From positions 1 to 55,196 of the forward strand of contig CALMKX010000054.1 of the NCBI GenBank assembly GCA_937867335.1: 55,196 bases of DNA, written 5' to 3'. This document shows, piece by piece, positions 20,389 to 31,263 of the stretch (its first letter is position 1; the number at the start of each line of letters is the position of its first letter). The DNA is from an uncultured Acidobacteriota bacterium (GTDB lineage Bacteria; Acidobacteriota; Thermoanaerobaculia; Multivoradales; SZUA-115). The notes below the pieces were generated by a model. It was not told the origin of the DNA. It saw nothing but the letters and a program-made list of their open reading frames with translations, and ran no database searches. Position numbers and translations under genes: made by a program.

Positions 20389-20659
20389 AGGCTGCAGACC
20401 GAGTCTTGGCGCGGAGGGCCTCGGTAACGAACGCGTGGAGTCCCACGCCTCTCGCGTGCGCTTGAGAGTTGAGAGCCTGGATCAGGTCCGCATCGACCTC
20501 GATCAGATAGCGGCGCCTCTCGAGGCGGGCATCGACCGGAACCTCTTCGGTGAACTCCAGATAGTCCGTCGTGTCGTGTTGCTCCCAGAACTCGGCCGCT
20601 TCCTCTTCGGTGGCGAATTCCTCCGGCAGCGCATCGACCTCACGTTGCATGGCCTTCAT
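20387..20659 (-). CDS. CopG/BrnA-type antitoxin
   Basis: 90-residue protein matching the CopG-antitoxin pattern: acidic N-terminal segment EEAAEFWEQHDTTDYLEF (toxin-binding) and a C-terminal ribbon-helix-helix-like part (RRYLIEVDADLIQALNSQAHARGVGLHAFVTEAL) for DNA binding and autoregulation. It overlaps the end of the BrnT-like toxin gene by 20 bp; toxin-first order is normal for BrnTA-type modules. It should neutralise the toxin and repress the operon. The end of the gene touches the terminator hairpin at 20363-20388. Confidence 0.85.
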   Translation of the reverse strand: MKAMQREVDALPEEFATEEEAAEFWEQHDTTDYLEFTEEVPVDARLERRRYLIEVDADLIQALNSQAHARGVGLHAFVTEALRAKTRSAA

Positions 20660-20930
20660 AGTACCGCCTTTCGGAATGGGTCATCTCCCGAGCTGAGATC
20701 GGCAAGGCAGCTTCGTGCCCCTTGAGAAGGAAGAACACTACGAGAAAGCGCTGGGCATCCGTTCGCCCATAGGCCAGGTAGAGATCCTCTCCTGGCACCC
20801 TCCCGCGCTGCAGTCGGCGCGTATGGGGTCTGGCGAAGAGCACTTCTTCCACTTCCTCCGGGGAGACTCCGTGCTTCGCTTCGAGCTTGTCGATCACCCT
20901 GTCTTTCCAGATGACCTCGCGGAGCCTCAT
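20640..20930 (-). CDS. BrnT-like toxin of a type II toxin-antitoxin module
   Basis: 96-residue protein. The text fits BrnT/RelE-fold toxins: VIWKDRVIDKLEAKHGVSPEEVEEVLF at the N-terminus, then a beta sheet (GEDLYLAYGRTDAQRFLVVFF) and the typical tail ISAREMTHSERRYYE. BrnT toxins are ribosome-linked RNases; the precise activity here is untested. The ATG at 20930 overlaps the esterase stop by one base (TGATG) and the 3' end overlaps the antitoxin gene by 20 bp, so expression of all three genes is likely translationally coupled. Confidence 0.8.
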   Translation of the reverse strand: MRLREVIWKDRVIDKLEAKHGVSPEEVEEVLFARPHTRRLQRGRVPGEDLYLAYGRTDAQRFLVVFFLLKGHEAALPISAREMTHSERRYYEGHAT

Positions 20931-21592
20931 CAGCCCGTCTCTCTCCCAAGCGCCCGCTCGAGGAGCCAGTGCTGGATCACTTCGAGGGCGCTCGGGCGGA
21001 TCTCGTGGGCCATGGGGAACTCGCGGTAGGTGAGGGTCACGCCGTAGGGCCGGAGCGTCTCGCGGGACTCTCGGGCTCGCTCCACCGGCACCACGAAGTC
21101 CTCCGTGCCGTGGATCATCAGCACCGGGAAGCCCTCGTGCTCCGGCCGCGCCGGCACTGCCTCGGCGAGCTGGGGCGGAAACCACGTGGAGAGCGCGGCG
21201 ATGCCGGCGAAGCGTGATGTCTCTCGCAGGCCCAGCTCGTAGGCCATCACTCCGCCCTGCGAGAAGCCGAGGAGAGCCACCCGCTCCAGGTCCGCCGGAT
21301 AGTGCGCAAGGGCCGCGAGCACGAACTGGCGCAGTTCCTCGGCGCTCGCGAGCACCTCGCTCGGGTCGGGCATCAGGCCGCTGCGCAGCGGGAACCAGCC
21401 GTAACCCAGAGCTCCCGGGCCGATCGGCACTTCCACCTGCCCCTGCGGGCAGATCACCATCGCTTCGCCGTCGAGAAAATAAGGGGCGAGACCCAGAAGA
21501 TCGTGTGCCGAAGCACCCCAGCCGTGAATCGCGATCACCGTGGGAAAGGGTCCCTCTCCCGCGGGCACATGGACGGTATGAAGGAGGTTCAT
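20930..21592 (-). CDS. Phospholipase/carboxylesterase-type alpha/beta hydrolase
   Basis: 220-residue alpha/beta hydrolase of the carboxylesterase (EstB/LYPLA-like) type. The oxyanion region is VIAIHGWGAS, the nucleophile elbow is GFSQGG with catalytic Ser, the acid is in LMIHGTEDFVVPVERA, and the catalytic His is in PMAHEIRPSAL. Substrates are probably short acyl esters; no signal peptide is seen, so it is cytoplasmic. The ATG at 21592 is the first Met before homology begins. It has no close ribosome site, but a TACAAT hexamer about 10 nt upstream would allow a leaderless transcript. It is coupled to the toxin-antitoxin pair downstream. Confidence 0.88.
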   Translation of the reverse strand: MNLLHTVHVPAGEGPFPTVIAIHGWGASAHDLLGLAPYFLDGEAMVICPQGQVEVPIGPGALGYGWFPLRSGLMPDPSEVLASAEELRQFVLAALAHYPADLERVALLGFSQGGVMAYELGLRETSRFAGIAALSTWFPPQLAEAVPARPEHEGFPVLMIHGTEDFVVPVERARESRETLRPYGVTLTYREFPMAHEIRPSALEVIQHWLLERALGRETG

Positions 21593-21826
21593 CGCGGGCG
21601 GATTGTAGGCGAGGGCCCTCCTCCTTGGCGAGTCGAGTCGGCGCCGCAGAAGCCCTGCACGAGGGAGGCGGCGTGGGCTCCCCGAACGAGTGATCGACCA
21701 CGCCGAGAGCAGCTGGATCGGGGGCGCGGTGGACTTCGTCGGCAACGGTGAGGACGGCCAAGGCTCTCTCCGGGCGATTGCTGTCAGTCCGTCGTCTCGA
21801 GGGTCGGCCCCGAATCATTCTCGCTG

Positions 21827-24800
21827 TCAGAGAGCGCGCAGGACGGCCGCGAACTCTGCGATGACTTGGACATGCTCCGCGTCGTCGCGGGTCAGGACGA
21901 TCGGATCAAAGGTCGGATTGGTGGGCTCGAGAATTACCCGCGTGTGTCGCCAGGCACCATCTCCAACCGCTTCCTTCACGGAGGAGTACCGCTTCACCGT
22001 GAAGGAACCGCCGGTCTCCGGGTCGGCTGGTCCGCGGTACTGGGCGAGGACGATTCTTCCTTGCCGCGTTCCAGCGGGCTGAGCGCGGAAGACCACGTAG
22101 TCGCCGTCGTGGATCACCGGTTCCATCGAACGGCCCACCGCTCGGCAGACGAACATCCGATCGTCGAGCCGACCAACGCCTTCGACCTCCACCCATCCCT
22201 CAGGCTCCACGGCCTCGCCGTTGCTGAAGTACCCCGCCGCCGCCTTGAGCGAATAGAGCGGCAGCAGCGTTTTGAACGCATCGCGCTTCACGCGCTCGTC
22301 CTCGAGCGAGATGAGGCGGAACTGGGATTCGGGACGAGCCCGCACGAGCGAATCCGCAAGCTCGGCGAGCGACGAGGCGCCCGCCGCCAGCGCCGCTTCG
22401 AACTTCTTCTGATGAGCAAGAAGGTACCGCCACTGCCCGTGCCGGGTGCCGCTCATCTTCTCGCACCACAGCCGCGCGGCCTCGCTCTTTAGCCCGGTAT
22501 TGGGGCGGACCTCCCCCTTCGTCTCCGCCAGCCACATCCCTTCCCGCCCGTCCTTGTCGCGGGCGGCAATGATGAAATCGGGGTAGTACTGCCGCGGTCG
22601 GTTGCTCTCGTAGTACGTCACCGAGAACCCGAACCGCTCGTTCTTGAAGTAGCGCACCACGTCCGTGGCGCCGTCCAGGAAGTCCGCGAAGCGCTTCTCC
22701 AGGTCAGTGTGGCACGGCACCTTGTTGGTGTGGCAGCGCTTACCCTCGGCTACGACGCCGGTCCACTGGAAGCGGCGCAGGTTTGCAGAGTCGAGCCACT
22801 CCGGGCTGCCGAGGATCGGCACCGCCTCCACGTCCACGGTGCCTGCACCGCGGATCGCCGTATCCAGTGCATCCAGCGCCTGCCGGCGCCAGTAGTAGAT
22901 GCCGACGTCCCGCACGTCGCTCTTGAGGCCGCCGGCTTCCAGCGGCGTGACGCGCGAGTCGAGAAACCGCTGCGAGACCTCGAGCAGCTCGTCGAAGGTC
23001 GGCCCGATGCCGAGGTCGCTCGCCGAGCCCGGGTTCGTCTCCTGGTACAGCTCCTCGGCCATGAGGAACGCCGTGCGCAGCACCGGCCATTCCTTGCGCA
23101 CCTCCTCGAGCGTCATCACCGCTTCGGGCGCACCACCCACGACCGGCCGCACGTGCACGTCGGGCGGCGTCTCCTTCGGGTTGAGCCGGAGCTGCGGCAG
23201 GTCGTCCACCTGGATGCGGTCGGCCAGCGAATCTGTCACGCCCACCGCCCAGGAACGGACGTTGGGCACCTGCACGCGGAACTTGGCCTTCTTGGGGTCG
23301 GCCTCGATCGTCACCGGCTTCTGGCCCCACTCGCCGGTCTTCGGGCGCTTGCGCTTCTCGACCGGGAAACCGACGAACGGGATGCCGAACGCGTCCACCG
23401 TCTCGTCGCTGCCCTCGGGTCGCTCGGCGAGCGGTTGGTTGAGCACGTCGTAGTTTGTGCGCCGCAGGCCGCGGCCGATGATCTGCTCGGTGAGCAGCGG
23501 CGAGCCGAAGGCGCGCAGGCCGAGGATGTGCGTCACGCTCTTCACATCCCAGCCTTCGGAGAGCATGTTCACGCTGATGATGGCGCGCACGTGCTCGCCG
23601 GGCTTGCCCTTCGAGCCGACCGTGTTGACCATCTCGCGCAGCACAGCCTCGTTGCCCTTGTCGGCATCGAAGACCTTGGAGTCGATCGGGATCGTCACCC
23701 AGCGCGACCGGTCGTCGTCGTCCGGGTTGCGCAGCAGCTCGTACTCGCGCGTCAGGTGCTCGAAGAGCCAGGCGGCCCGCTGCGCGCTGTCGGCCACGCA
23801 CAGCAGCACGGGAGCCGGCCCGCGCGCGAACTCGAACGATCCGGCCCACTCGTCGTGGTCCTTCTTCCACGACGAGTAGATGCTCGCAATCGCCCCTTTG
23901 CAGGCGCGCAGGTATTCCTCCTTGGTCTTGGCTCCCTTCACCAGATCCCACAGGTCGAGGTAGACGCGCCCCTGCTCGTCCGGGTCCGGCAGGCGCACCA
24001 CCTTGACCAGCCCAGACTCGAAGGCGTCGTACACCGAGAAGTCCGAGACCAACCACTCGAAGAGCGTGCCCTCTGGTTTGGGTGATCCCGATCCGTACCA
24101 GGGCGTGGCTGAGAGATCGACCACCAGGCTTACCCGCGCGGCCCTTCCGATGCGCTCGAGGATCTTGCTCCACTTGATGTGCTCGGGGTCGTCGCCCGCA
24201 CGCGTCCGCTTCTCGCCGTAGACATGGTGCGCCTCGTCGTTGATCACCACGAGGTCGCGCCAGCCGCCGAGCAGGCGCCTGATCGGCGCGTTCGGGTCCT
24301 GCTTTGCGCGGCGCTGCATCGCGCGCAGCACCGCCTGCGGGATGAAGCGCCCTTCCTCCAGCGGCACCTCGCCCTCGCCGATCCAGTCCTCGCGCTTGTT
24401 CTCGAGCTGGATGCTCTGCCAGTTGCGCACCAGCACGTTCGGGTGGAACTCCTCCCGGTACTCGGGCGGCACCATCTCGAAAGCGCCGTACAGGTTGTGC
24501 TCGCCCGCCGGGTCCAGCCCGTCACCGCGAGGCTGCCCGCTCACGCGGTCGCGCACCGTGAGGTTGGGCACCAGCACCAGGAAGTTCGTCGAAAGCGACG
24601 ATCCGCTCACCTTGCGCTTGTGCAGTGTGGCCCAGGTGACGAAGAGCGCCATCACCACCGTCTTGCCGGTACCGGTGGCGAGCTTGAGCGCATAGCGCAG
24701 CAAGTCGCCGGTCTCGGGCATGCGGCGGCGGTTCTGCACCTCGTAGAGGTAGATGACCGTTTCCACCGCCTCCTGTTGGCAGAAGAAGAAGCGCTTGCCC

Positions 24801-25147
24801 ACGGCGCGGCGCTCCTCGTCGCGCTCGAACCACCACTCGATCAGCCGCCGCGTGACCACCGCCGTAACCGGCCAGCCCGCCTCGCGCCAGTCACGCACTT
24901 CGCCGCGGAGCTGGTTGACGAACTCGTTCCTTTCCGCACCGGCAGCCGAGAGGTCGTCGAAGAGTCCCGCCTGGCGCCCAACGATACCGGTGATGCCGCC
25001 CTTCATGTCCCTGGCGGAAGCGAGGAACCGCATCGACGGCCGCCGGGCCGGCACGCGCCGCGACCGACCGCCGGGCAGCAACTCGTAGTGCACATCCGGC
25101 TCGCGGAAGGCATCGCAGATGACGACGCGGTCGACGACGTAAGCCAT
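21827..25147 (-). CDS. res: Type III restriction Res subunit fused to a LexA/UmuD-like S24 self-cleaving domain
   Basis: 1106 residues from the ATG at 25147 (GGAG site upstream; 13 bp after mod). Helicase motifs: Walker A ATGTGKT (157-163), DEAH (304-307), LSATPW (345-350), then MLSEGWDVKSVTH and QIIGRGLRR (motifs V and VI). A PD-ExK nuclease follows, with Asp857 in YYPDF, Glu875 and Lys877 in LAETKGE; this is where Res subunits cut. Beyond about residue 960 comes an extra domain with all marks of peptidase family S24: Ala971-Gly972 in SLKAAAGYF (cleavage site), Ser1007 in GRSMEPVIHDGD and Lys1052 in FTVKRYSS. G972 to S1007 is 35 residues, against 34 in E. coli LexA. Self-cleavage would remove about 135 C-terminal residues and leave helicase and nuclease intact. 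No helix-turn-helix is present. Confidence 0.9.
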   Translation of the reverse strand: MAYVVDRVVICDAFREPDVHYELLPGGRSRRVPARRPSMRFLASARDMKGGITGIVGRQAGLFDDLSAAGAERNEFVNQLRGEVRDWREAGWPVTAVVTRRLIEWWFERDEERRAVGKRFFFCQQEAVETVIYLYEVQNRRRMPETGDLLRYALKLATGTGKTVVMALFVTWATLHKRKVSGSSLSTNFLVLVPNLTVRDRVSGQPRGDGLDPAGEHNLYGAFEMVPPEYREEFHPNVLVRNWQSIQLENKREDWIGEGEVPLEEGRFIPQAVLRAMQRRAKQDPNAPIRRLLGGWRDLVVINDEAHHVYGEKRTRAGDDPEHIKWSKILERIGRAARVSLVVDLSATPWYGSGSPKPEGTLFEWLVSDFSVYDAFESGLVKVVRLPDPDEQGRVYLDLWDLVKGAKTKEEYLRACKGAIASIYSSWKKDHDEWAGSFEFARGPAPVLLCVADSAQRAAWLFEHLTREYELLRNPDDDDRSRWVTIPIDSKVFDADKGNEAVLREMVNTVGSKGKPGEHVRAIISVNMLSEGWDVKSVTHILGLRAFGSPLLTEQIIGRGLRRTNYDVLNQPLAERPEGSDETVDAFGIPFVGFPVEKRKRPKTGEWGQKPVTIEADPKKAKFRVQVPNVRSWAVGVTDSLADRIQVDDLPQLRLNPKETPPDVHVRPVVGGAPEAVMTLEEVRKEWPVLRTAFLMAEELYQETNPGSASDLGIGPTFDELLEVSQRFLDSRVTPLEAGGLKSDVRDVGIYYWRRQALDALDTAIRGAGTVDVEAVPILGSPEWLDSANLRRFQWTGVVAEGKRCHTNKVPCHTDLEKRFADFLDGATDVVRYFKNERFGFSVTYYESNRPRQYYPDFIIAARDKDGREGMWLAETKGEVRPNTGLKSEAARLWCEKMSGTRHGQWRYLLAHQKKFEAALAAGASSLAELADSLVRARPESQFRLISLEDERVKRDAFKTLLPLYSLKAAAGYFSNGEAVEPEGWVEVEGVGRLDDRMFVCRAVGRSMEPVIHDGDYVVFRAQPAGTRQGRIVLAQYRGPADPETGGSFTVKRYSSVKEAVGDGAWRHTRVILEPTNPTFDPIVLTRDDAEHVQVIAEFAAVLRAL

Positions 25148-27707: not shown

Positions 27708-30464
27708 CTACGTGGCTGTTGCCTCTCGGCCGGCCGTGCACATGCCCCAGTAGTCGCAGGCGCGGCATTTGTTCGGTGCGGCGGTGGCCGTCAACGTGCC
27801 GGCGCGCAGACTTTCCGCAGCGGTGCGGGTCTGCGCCTTGACGTCGGCGATGAAGTCGTCGTCCACCGATCGCGGCCTGCGCTTGCCCTCGTCCAATTCG
27901 TAGATCTCGACGTAGTCGGGGCGACGCCCGGTCAGCTCCTGGTAGCCGAGCGCGTAGACGTGCAGCTGAGTCTCGGTGACCTCCTCGGCCTGGGCGCGAT
28001 CGCTGGACTTCAGGTCGACGATGGTCGTCTCACCCGTGTCGATGCGTCGCACGAGGTCGATGCGGCCCACCACGCTGACGCCGTCGCCAAGGTTGATCTC
28101 GATCTGCTTCTCGGAGAACTCGATCTTGTCGAAGAGGGCCTGATTCTGCTTCAGGTACTCGCGGATCACCCGTTCAGCGCTTGCTTCTAGCTGCTGCCGT
28201 AGTGCGGGGTAGGCGTATGGCGTGTGCATGTGAGTCTCAAGAAGGCGGGGCACCTCGGCAGCGTCGGCTACGTCGCCGCGGATCGCGCGGGCGTGCACCT
28301 CCGCGAGAGCGTCGTGCAGCGATTTGCCATATCCAAGCGCCTCGTGGATCGGCGCGTTGAAGCCGTACAGCACGCGCAGCTTGAATTGGTAGGGGCACTC
28401 GAAGAAGTACTTCAGGTCCGAGAACGAGAACACCACGTTCGAGACCCCCGCCCGTGGTTGTGGCGGGAGCCGCTTGCGCGAAGAGTAGTCGGGCATCTTG
28501 CGCTTAACGTGCTTCGAGACGAGGACGTTGTCCCAGAACTCCGACGCGCGCACGTAGCGATTGTTCTTGCCGGCAATCGGCGCCCACGTCATGTGCAGGA
28601 ACTTCTGCGCGCGCGTCATAGCGACATAGAAAAGGCGCCGCTCGTCCTCTACGGTCCCTTCGAATCGCGACTGACCTCTGATGCCGCTGCGCGGGAGTAG
28701 GTGCCAGACGCCTCGGCCGCCGATCCTCGCCGCCGGGAAGCGGTTCCTCAGCAGCGCAGGCACGAACACCACCGGCCACTGCATCCCTTTGGCCTGGTGG
28801 ATGGTCATGACCCGCACCGCGTCGGGGTTCGCGTACTGGTTGTCCTGCCAGCCCTCGGGGTAAGCGTCCTCGGCGCGGTACTGGAGAAAACTGGCGAAGG
28901 AGCCGTACTTCTCGGCGGGCTTGGACTGGAAGTGGATCGCTTCGAAGTCGGAGATCACCTGGCTGAACTTGCCGAGGTTGTAGAAGACGACCTCACCGCG
29001 GTCGCAAGGGACCCCCTCCTCGCGGATTCCCGCCTGATCGAGAAAGTTGAGGAACACCCGCTGGATCGAGTACTGGCCCCACCGCTTCTGGTCCGGATCG
29101 GCGAGCGCCGCCTTGGCGAGCGCGGCACCGCGCAGGGCTCTGCGTAGCGCGGCCGGGTCCAGCCCGAGGTCGGCCGACAACCAAGCCTGCTCGACGGCTG
29201 CCGAGTCTGGGCCAGTGTCAGCCATGAAGTAGAACAGTTGGCGCGCCGCTTCGGCCTCGGCAGTGCCAAAGAGGTTGCTCATGCCCGTGACGACGAAGGG
29301 AATGCCGGCCGCCCGCAACGCTTGGGTGATCGGCTCGGCGTTGGCCTTCACGCTTCGGAGCAAGACCGCCATGTCCGACCACGCGAGTCCGCGCCCCTTG
29401 CCGTCTTCCGTGAAGGCAACGCCCCGCAAGGCCTGCGCCGTGTTGACGATGTGCTGCGCTTCCTCGCCGGGGCCGGTGAACGCCAGCGCCGCGATGTCGC
29501 CGGGCTCGTAGGGCTGTGCTCCCGTCGGCTTCATCGCCTTCGACAGGCGGGCGGTGTTCTGCTCGATAAACGGGCGTGCGGTTTCGACGATGCCGTCGCT
29601 GGAGCGGAAGTTCTCTTCGATAGGGATCGCGTCTACGTCGGGGTAACGCTTCGCGAACGAGAGGATGTTCTCGACATCGCTGCCGCGCCACTGGTAGATG
29701 GTCTGGTCGTCGTCGCCGACCACACAGATCCGCGCGCCGAGCTCGTGCAGCGACCAGACGATCGCCTCCTGAACAGGGTTGACATCCTGGTACTCGTCCA
29801 CGACGACGTACTTCACGCGCTCGCGAAGCCGGGCTCGAAACCCATCGTCGTTGGTCGTGAGAATGACCGCTTCCTCCAGGATCGCCGAATAATCGAGGTA
29901 GCTGTTGTCGTCGAGCAAGCTCTGATAGGCCGCAAGACCGGCGAGCAGGGAACAGCCTTCGACATGGGCGTCGACTCGCTCCGCTTCACGCAGGATGGAC
30001 AGTGCTGTGACGTAGTGAGGAGTGTCGCGGTAGCGCTTCAGGGCCGCGCCCCCGAGATCCGTGGAAGTCGTCAGTCCGCTCTTGCTGCTATTTCGATCGA
30101 CGAAGAGCCCTTGCTGCACCTCGTTGAGGAGCTCGAACTTGAGATGCTTCGGCGAATCGGACTTCAGCAGCTCGAGGCAGAAAGCGTGGATGGTGCCGAC
30201 GAACATCTCCGCCATGCCGGGGATCTCGCCCAGGGCCTGGCGGGTGCGCGTAACGATCCGCTCCTTCAGCTCGGCTGCGGCTTTGTCGGTGAACGTGAAA
30301 GCGATGATGTTGCGTGGTGCGAGGGAGTCGGCACGCCCCGGGGTTAGCAGGTGAACGACGCGACGCGCCACCACCTCGGTCTTGCCGGACCCCGCGCAGG
30401 CGATCAGCTGGAGGTTCTTCCCGGCGTGCTCGATAGCCTTCTGCTGAGAAGGCGTGAGCTTCAT
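27708..30464 (-). CDS. UvrD/AddA-like helicase with PD-(D/E)XK nuclease and Fe-S cysteines
   Basis: 918 residues from the ATG at 30464, which has AGGAG 8 nt upstream; a GTG at 30500 would add 12 residues. SF1A motifs: ACAGSGKT (22-29), FTDKAAAELKERI, DEYQD (223-227), GDDDQTIYQWRGSD, and RVMTIHQAKGMQWPVVFVP and YVAMTRAQ in the second half. The C-terminal nuclease resembles AddB/RecB: His at about 717, GRID Asp803, Asp817 and Lys819 in VDLKSS. Cys690 (FECPYQF) and C900xxC903x5C909 form the 1+3 set that binds a 4Fe-4S cluster in AddB-type nucleases. It should unwind and degrade DNA ends. First gene of a three-gene unit with mod and res, which is not the usual chromosomal repair context (addAB, recBCD). 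Confidence 0.92.
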   Translation of the reverse strand: MKLTPSQQKAIEHAGKNLQLIACAGSGKTEVVARRVVHLLTPGRADSLAPRNIIAFTFTDKAAAELKERIVTRTRQALGEIPGMAEMFVGTIHAFCLELLKSDSPKHLKFELLNEVQQGLFVDRNSSKSGLTTSTDLGGAALKRYRDTPHYVTALSILREAERVDAHVEGCSLLAGLAAYQSLLDDNSYLDYSAILEEAVILTTNDDGFRARLRERVKYVVVDEYQDVNPVQEAIVWSLHELGARICVVGDDDQTIYQWRGSDVENILSFAKRYPDVDAIPIEENFRSSDGIVETARPFIEQNTARLSKAMKPTGAQPYEPGDIAALAFTGPGEEAQHIVNTAQALRGVAFTEDGKGRGLAWSDMAVLLRSVKANAEPITQALRAAGIPFVVTGMSNLFGTAEAEAARQLFYFMADTGPDSAAVEQAWLSADLGLDPAALRRALRGAALAKAALADPDQKRWGQYSIQRVFLNFLDQAGIREEGVPCDRGEVVFYNLGKFSQVISDFEAIHFQSKPAEKYGSFASFLQYRAEDAYPEGWQDNQYANPDAVRVMTIHQAKGMQWPVVFVPALLRNRFPAARIGGRGVWHLLPRSGIRGQSRFEGTVEDERRLFYVAMTRAQKFLHMTWAPIAGKNNRYVRASEFWDNVLVSKHVKRKMPDYSSRKRLPPQPRAGVSNVVFSFSDLKYFFECPYQFKLRVLYGFNAPIHEALGYGKSLHDALAEVHARAIRGDVADAAEVPRLLETHMHTPYAYPALRQQLEASAERVIREYLKQNQALFDKIEFSEKQIEINLGDGVSVVGRIDLVRRIDTGETTIVDLKSSDRAQAEEVTETQLHVYALGYQELTGRRPDYVEIYELDEGKRRPRSVDDDFIADVKAQTRTAAESLRAGTLTATAAPNKCRACDYWGMCTAGREATAT

Positions 30465-30808
30465 GCCCACAGCTCCTGCCGCGAGCAGAGGTTCCTGCAC
30501 TTCCGACAGTCGCCTTGTGCGTGAGTCACCGTCGGAACTCGGGGGATCCGTGGTTCTTGCCTTGGCTTAGCTTTCGTTCCAGATCTCGAACTCCATCCGG
30601 CGCACGCGCCACTACCCGCGGACCTTGAAAGCGGATAATCCTCTCCCCTACACAATCGAGTACACGCTCTTATCGGCCTGCTTCAGAAGAGCGGCTATCT
30701 CCTCAGTCAACGGAACCATACTCCAACGCCGCCGCGCTCGCCAGCCGGTCGCGATCTGTGGACCAGGAGATTCACTGCGCCGAGCTACCCGTGTTGCGCT
30801 CCTCCCAC
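30465..30808. other. Intergenic region upstream of the restriction operon
   Basis: About 340 bp with no gene I can support. It contains the interrupted palindrome described separately and an inverted repeat TTCCGAC/GTCGGAA (24-nt spacer) near 30492-30535 on the operon side. No unambiguous promoter hexamers were found. It should hold the promoter of the helicase-mod-res operon. Confidence 0.5.
30576..30591. promoter_or_regulatory. Interrupted palindrome, possible operator of the restriction operon
   Basis: GTTCCAGATCTCGAAC is symmetric except for one base on each side: GTTC-n-AGATCT-n-GAAC. It lies 112 bp upstream of the first gene of the operon. GTTC/GAAC half-sites occur in LexA boxes of some phyla, though with different spacing and orientation, so a LexA link is only a possibility. 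Confidence 0.35.
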
Positions 30809-31187: not shown

Positions 31188-31263
31188 TGGTGGAGCAGAA
31201 GGGATTCGAACCCTCGACCCCCACGTTGCGAACGTGGTGCTCTCCCAGCTGAGCTACTGCCCC
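31188..31263 (-). tRNA. tRNA-Ala (anticodon CGC)
   Basis: 76-nt cloverleaf on the minus strand. Acceptor GGGGCAG pairs with CTGCTCC and includes the G3-U70 pair that defines alanine tRNAs. D-arm GCTCAGCTGGGAGAGC; anticodon stem-loop CCACG-TTCGCAA-CGTGG gives CGC (codon GCG); T-arm GAGGG-TTCGAAT-CCCTT; encoded discriminator A and CCA end. The 3' end faces the recombinase remnant and restriction operon. Confidence 0.97.

Follow-up and report, generated by a model that had tools for sequence, protein, structure and literature searches.

The S24 domains of LexA, UmuD and lambda CI (PF00717, MEROPS S24), carried on a DNA-binding domain or on a polymerase arm, dimerise and bind RecA filaments, and domains of the LexA type also cleave slowly on their own. 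In UmuD, cleavage is activation. The N-terminal fragment of cleaved LexA ends in ...RVAA, a known ClpXP signal. Some restriction enzymes, for their part, are subject to alleviation, among them type I systems, which are suppressed after DNA damage (PMC3874165). The HsdR subunit of EcoKI is degraded by ClpXP during translocation, the degron never having been found (PMC4231737); recombination that creates unmodified sites triggers alleviation without any need for LexA cleavage (PMC11109961). The protein described here, which we call Res-S24, has its closest described relatives among the type III-like Res subunits of the BPTD_3080 family (NF046055), and carries in addition a C-terminal module with the predicted fold of LexA, UmuD and lambda CI, their Ser–Lys dyad and an Ala–Gly pair about 36 residues before the serine, in the AAG context of LexA. 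Res-S24 and the two other genes of its operon are located in the Table within the window, by which we mean the whole 55,196-nucleotide stretch of DNA that was analysed.

Table. Features of the Res-S24 operon in window coordinates, with residues numbered along Res-S24.
Feature	Position	Strand	Basis
Res-S24, type III-like restriction subunit with C-terminal S24 module, 1106 aa	21827..25147	minus	ORF, Pfam, NCBIfam, homologue alignment
SF2 helicase/translocase part, ResIII residues 123–349; Walker A ATGTGKT 157–163, DEAH 304–307	24101..24781	minus	Pfam; motifs invariant in homologue alignment
PD-(D/E)xK nuclease region, residues 809–896	22460..22723	minus	Pfam RE_endonuc, E 0.007, below cut-off; PADLOC REase_III; conservation
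Variable linker between nuclease and module, residues 910–957	22277..22420	minus	Mean conservation 0.69, lowest of the protein
S24 self-cleavage module, residues 958–1106	21830..22276	minus	Pfam S24, module family, AF2 model, LexA fold
Ala971-Gly972, predicted cleavage site	22232..22237	minus	Conservation; aligned with LexA VAAG
Ser1007, predicted nucleophile	22127..22129	minus	Invariant in 72/72 modules
Lys1052, predicted general base	21992..21994	minus	Invariant in 72/72 modules; aligned with LexA TVKR
Type III-like N6/N4 DNA methyltransferase (Mod), 842 aa	25161..27689	minus	Pfam N6_N4_Mtase, E 1e-29; PADLOC MTase_III, 452 bits
UvrD-type helicase with PD-ExK/Cas4-like nuclease, 930 aa, first operon gene	27708..30500	minus	Pfam

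Judged from its sequence, Res-S24 is a type III-like Res subunit, combining an SF2 motor with a PD-ExK nuclease and adjoined by an N6 methyltransferase, Mod. The Pfam match to ResIII has an E value of 3.7e-11, those to Helicase_C and RE_endonuc are weak, and the nuclease residues D857, E875 and K877 are invariant across homologues. Translation is taken to start at the ATG at 25147 (MAYVVDRVV), which is conserved among homologues; a longer reading frame from 25204 is unsupported by them. Residues 1–910, and only these, align along the length of the plasmid-borne members of the BPTD_3080 family, at 27–30% identity. Because Res-S24 scores 571.4 bits against NF046055, below the curated cut-off of 800 bits, we regard it as a sister lineage and not a member of that family. 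The two differ further in that the matches to the family members found stop before the module, and in the UvrD-PDDEXK gene that the Res-S24 operon adds.

Mod adjoins Res in every homologous locus that reaches that far, and the ten related loci that extend far enough upstream all keep the order UvrD-Mod-Res, at 46–82% identity. A tRNA-Ala (CGC) gene at 31188–31263, a possible site of island insertion, immediately precedes the operon. On the other side, a minus-strand ORF at 20640–21818 has a BrnT-toxin-like match at its C-terminus and overlaps, in another frame, an esterase-like ORF (20930–21745).

A scan of genome contigs returned 16 related Res loci of 63–87% identity, and all the complete ones carry the module. 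Their hosts are metagenome-assembled genomes labelled Acidobacteria, Burkholderiales, Nitrospira, Binatia, Rhodanobacteraceae, Bacteroidetes and others, a list that is rough in so far as such labels may be wrong; Res-S24 has likely spread by transfer. We considered whether the S24 end might be a one-off fusion or an accident of annotation, and rejected this on finding 13 other intact homologues, in metagenome-assembled genomes assigned to several phyla, as well as unrelated enzymes that carry the module.

At the C-terminus, Peptidase_S24 matches residues 990–1097 with an E value of 6e-9 and a score of 36.1 bits, where the cut-off is 23.3, and NCBIfam, independently of Pfam, places LexA (E 2.6e-5) and UmuD (E 3.2e-4) at the same end. 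The first-pass annotation had picked out Ala971-Gly972, Ser1007 and Lys1052 as the marks of an S24 protein, and all three are found at those numbers. In the 14 full-length homologues of 67–87% identity, Ala969, Ala970, Ala971, Ser1007 and Lys1052 are invariant and Gly972 is present in 13. The segment around the predicted cleavage site (residues 958–975) is among the most conserved stretches of the protein, with a mean conservation of 0.93 against 0.69 in the linker that precedes the module. The same annotation took the protein to have no DNA-binding domain, and searches of Pfam and NCBIfam returned no HTH or LexA_DNA_bind match, the N-terminus being Res. The possibility that the S24 end belongs to a repressor was discarded on this ground: Res-S24 is not a repressor.

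An AF2 model of the module built from 68 sequences has a pLDDT of 87 and a pTM of 0.83. All 37 of its Foldseek matches with E ≤ 0.001 are LexA, lambda CI or UmuD, the entries 8gms, 8gmt and 8gmu among them, so that the S24 fold proposed at first pass is borne out by the top matches of the predicted structure. Against residues 71–199 of E. coli LexA the model gives a VIA Z of 11–12 with the cleavage-site segment included, whereas signal peptidases and unrelated folds reach only 5–6. The module profile, run against PDB sequences, returned LexA alone, with AAG, Ser and Lys aligned. The full-length model (1106 aa, 14 homologues), at a mean pLDDT of 41, is too low in confidence to judge how the module packs on the enzyme. 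Ala971 and Ser1007 are 36 positions apart (35 residues between them), and the corresponding Ala84 and Ser119 of LexA 35, which agrees with the near-LexA gap noted earlier. The serine and lysine are 45 positions apart, against 37 in LexA, owing to a loop insertion.

These features are retained across the family. The consensus reads L-x-[AVI]-A-A-G-x-F ... G-x-S-M ... T-V-K. Serine and lysine are invariant in all 72 distinct module proteins, whose partners are as distant as HsdR, DruE and SLFN helicases; of 71 sites that can be read, 68 have Ala–Gly, and in the remainder Gly gives way to Ser or Thr or, in one case, the row is misaligned. P1 is Ala in every readable row except one, which has Cys. 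The conservation of dyad and cleavage site, which the first-pass annotation had offered as a check, thus holds well beyond the close homologues. Otherwise intact modules with variant dipeptides are Ala-Ser in L038 and L006, Ala-Thr in L103 and Cys-Gly in L183. By predicted fold, dyad and Ala–Gly site the domain is a member of the S24 group, and its self-cleavage is a prediction. One might suppose instead that the S24 core serves mainly to dimerise the enzyme or to dock it on RecA filaments, placing or oligomerising it there. The known behaviour of LexA, UmuD and CI in both respects, and the presence of 8gms, 8gmt and 8gmu among the fold matches, would fit such a role. Dimerisation alone would not, however, keep the dyad and the Ala–Gly site so nearly constant, nor make the cleavage segment the best conserved part of the module region, and we consider a non-cleaving role quite unlikely.

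Homologue searches with the whole protein also gave matches of 41–66% identity that cover only residues ~944–1103 and lie mostly in much larger, unrelated proteins. The partners of the module in these proteins are type I HsdR subunits (SWI2_SNF2, HSDR_N, T1RH-C), type ISP/IIG enzymes, Schlafen-group-3 helicases, DUF3037 proteins and DEAD+MZB helicases that PADLOC matches best to DruE. Wider searches extended the list by a helicase with a type IV enzyme as its top PADLOC match (L165), a HATPase_c_3 protein (L187) and further type III Res lineages, with 477 bits (L103) and 728 bits (L186) to the PADLOC type III models. In L158 a whole type I operon, hsdM-hsdS-hsdR-S24, is present, and in L184 an N6/N4 methyltransferase gene lies upstream of the module gene. 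In one ISP-type enzyme (L061:4649-9196) the module is internal (~1173–1321) and is followed by ~195 more residues, unlike in nearly all the others. The DUF3037 proteins with a module (L065, L066; ~260 aa) have no obvious place in a restriction system.

The wider searches also brought in two HTH repressors. These CI-like proteins (L181, L161) carry relatives of the module and would act through transcription, whereas enzymes of the Res-S24 type have no HTH. The gene in L181 (3931–4767), an HTH_3 domain followed by the module, is divergent from a 1186-aa ORF without a Pfam match and from a gene with a PAPS-reductase domain; its product is perhaps a trans-acting form of the same control.

The abundance of the module was estimated with its profile at E ≤ 1e-15, each count including its seed genome. 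The phylum of the window gave 22 positive genomes out of 247, that of L036 26 out of 237 and that of L035 5 out of 299, so that in two of the phyla roughly one sampled genome in ten carries it. No scores fall between 1e-15 and 1e-37 in the window's phylum, which separates the family from LexA there; in the phylum of L036 scores continue down to 1e-17, and the edge of the family is less sharp. Close modules are nearly absent from plasmid and phage records: one plasmid record (Halomonas) has one, and the phages gave generic S24 repressors only. An HsdR-S24 (L102) and the classic type III Res-S24 of L103 are on IMG/VR contigs classed as viral, and may be defence genes borne by prophages or satellites.

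A maximum-likelihood tree of 68 modules requires at least 21 changes of partner class, with partners sorted into ten groups, or at least 18 when unknowns are left out; these counts are approximate, given a bootstrap that had not quite converged and the length of some rows. The starred branches alone require at least five changes for HsdR and at least three for SLFN, and the HsdR module of L158 nests with type III Res modules at 100/99. A natural counterpart without the module is provided by an HsdR in genome G244 (L213 / L217:8750-11779, G244:C6), which is 84% identical to the module-bearing HsdR of L058 over residues 6–1009 and ends no more than ~10 residues further on, where the module would start. 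An HsdM gene is nearby, and no trace of a module was found downstream of this HsdR. Because so near a relative ends cleanly before the module, we take it that gain or loss of the module leaves the core of the enzyme unharmed. We conclude from these comparisons of sequence that the module is a mobile unit, which a variable linker connects to the C-termini of ATP-dependent defence enzymes of many kinds. The first-pass annotation had rightly noted a Res that bears an S24 domain, and had missed this larger point.

The same observations bear on whether the module might cleave itself soon after synthesis, as a step of maturation with no damage signal. LexA-type domains do cleave slowly unaided, and nothing in the sequence reveals a trigger. 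Nevertheless, the HsdR of G244 does without the module, and a constant, removable tail fails to explain repeated capture by one class of enzyme; constitutive processing seems to us highly improbable. Nearly all of the partners are DNA-translocating or helicase engines, which is the class known to need alleviation. The intact self-cleavage apparatus, the variable linker upstream of the site and the predominance of ATP-driven DNA motors among the partners together make regulated removal of the motor the most likely function. We therefore lean, with slightly better than even confidence, towards reading Res-S24 as a type III-like Res in which a self-cleaving module of the LexA/UmuD type acts as a cis-acting control, its regulated removal amounting to built-in restriction alleviation.

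In the mechanism that we propose, a signal, most likely the RecA–ssDNA filament, would trigger the module to cut its own Ala971-Gly972 bond, releasing an intact helicase-nuclease (residues 1–971) from the S24 core. The new C-terminus, ...LKAAA, would then open the enzyme to proteolysis; destruction is proposed because it resembles the ...RVAA of cleaved LexA. When damage or recombination of the chromosome makes unmodified self sites, the translocating enzyme would in this manner be removed before it breaks the chromosome. We infer each of these elements, namely cleavage, its triggering by RecA, the ensuing degradation and a switch that turns the enzyme off. The genome of the window contains recA, clpX and lexA. 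The outcome would resemble that described for EcoKI, in which a restriction subunit that translocates DNA is lost when the cell's own DNA is endangered, with the difference that in EcoKI a protease acts in trans on an unidentified degron during translocation, whereas the switch of Res-S24 would be built into the enzyme.

The switch could also work in the opposite direction, the intact module restraining the enzyme until a RecA filament on damaged or phage-replicating DNA triggers cleavage and frees a more active nuclease. Conservation of the cleavage machinery is equally expected on this reading, UmuD is a precedent, and phage replication may be what the DruE-like and SLFN partners act upon; Druantia III is described as acting late, on replication intermediates that contain ssDNA (PMC13192584). 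The HsdR of G244, with its HsdM gene nearby, argues that the core can exist with no need of release, however, and the new C-terminus looks like a degron. Turning on chromosome-cutting engines during damage to the cell's own DNA would, moreover, be hazardous for restriction-modification enzymes. Activation by cleavage is in our judgement unlikely.

Several points weigh against built-in alleviation as well. Cleavage may be slow or lost where P1' has changed (Ser in L038, Thr in L103), and the AAA tail may be kept for protease specificity and not as a degron. The two readings of the tail are inseparable here because an IAAG also occurs in the LexA of this genome (L001). Alleviation in E. coli works without any S24 domain, and for type III systems no alleviation is, to our knowledge, established. 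By analogy with IrvR, a LexA-like protein that cleaves without RecA (PMC7101444), the module too might cleave in a RecA-free manner.

The wider proposition is that type I, type III, ISP/IIG, Druantia-like and Schlafen-helicase defence enzymes have independently acquired a transferable S24 cassette that cleaves itself, and that these fusions make up a general layer of post-translational control, in which the lifetime of immune motors that attack DNA depends on the RecA or DNA-damage state of the cell, through self-destruction or alleviation in cis; to this we would give an even chance. No description of S24 or LexA-like fusions to restriction enzymes, helicases, Druantia or defence was found in the open-access papers searched, and the impression at first pass that no restriction system of this build had been described agrees with this. 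What appears new is the combination of Res with an S24 module together with its repeated evolution.

It is understood only in part how bacteria prevent DNA-attacking immune enzymes from destroying a chromosome of their own that is damaged or undergoing recombination. The natural pair of HsdR proteins with and without the module, from L058 and G244, and the dipeptide variants offer natural material for judging cleavability and the effect of the module, which is itself a potential portable control part. The repeated attachment of this switch to unrelated defence enzymes suggests an undescribed way to shut them off, or on, when the DNA of the cell itself is compromised. If this is true, a module grafted many times onto such enzymes would connect the DNA-damage response directly to innate immunity.
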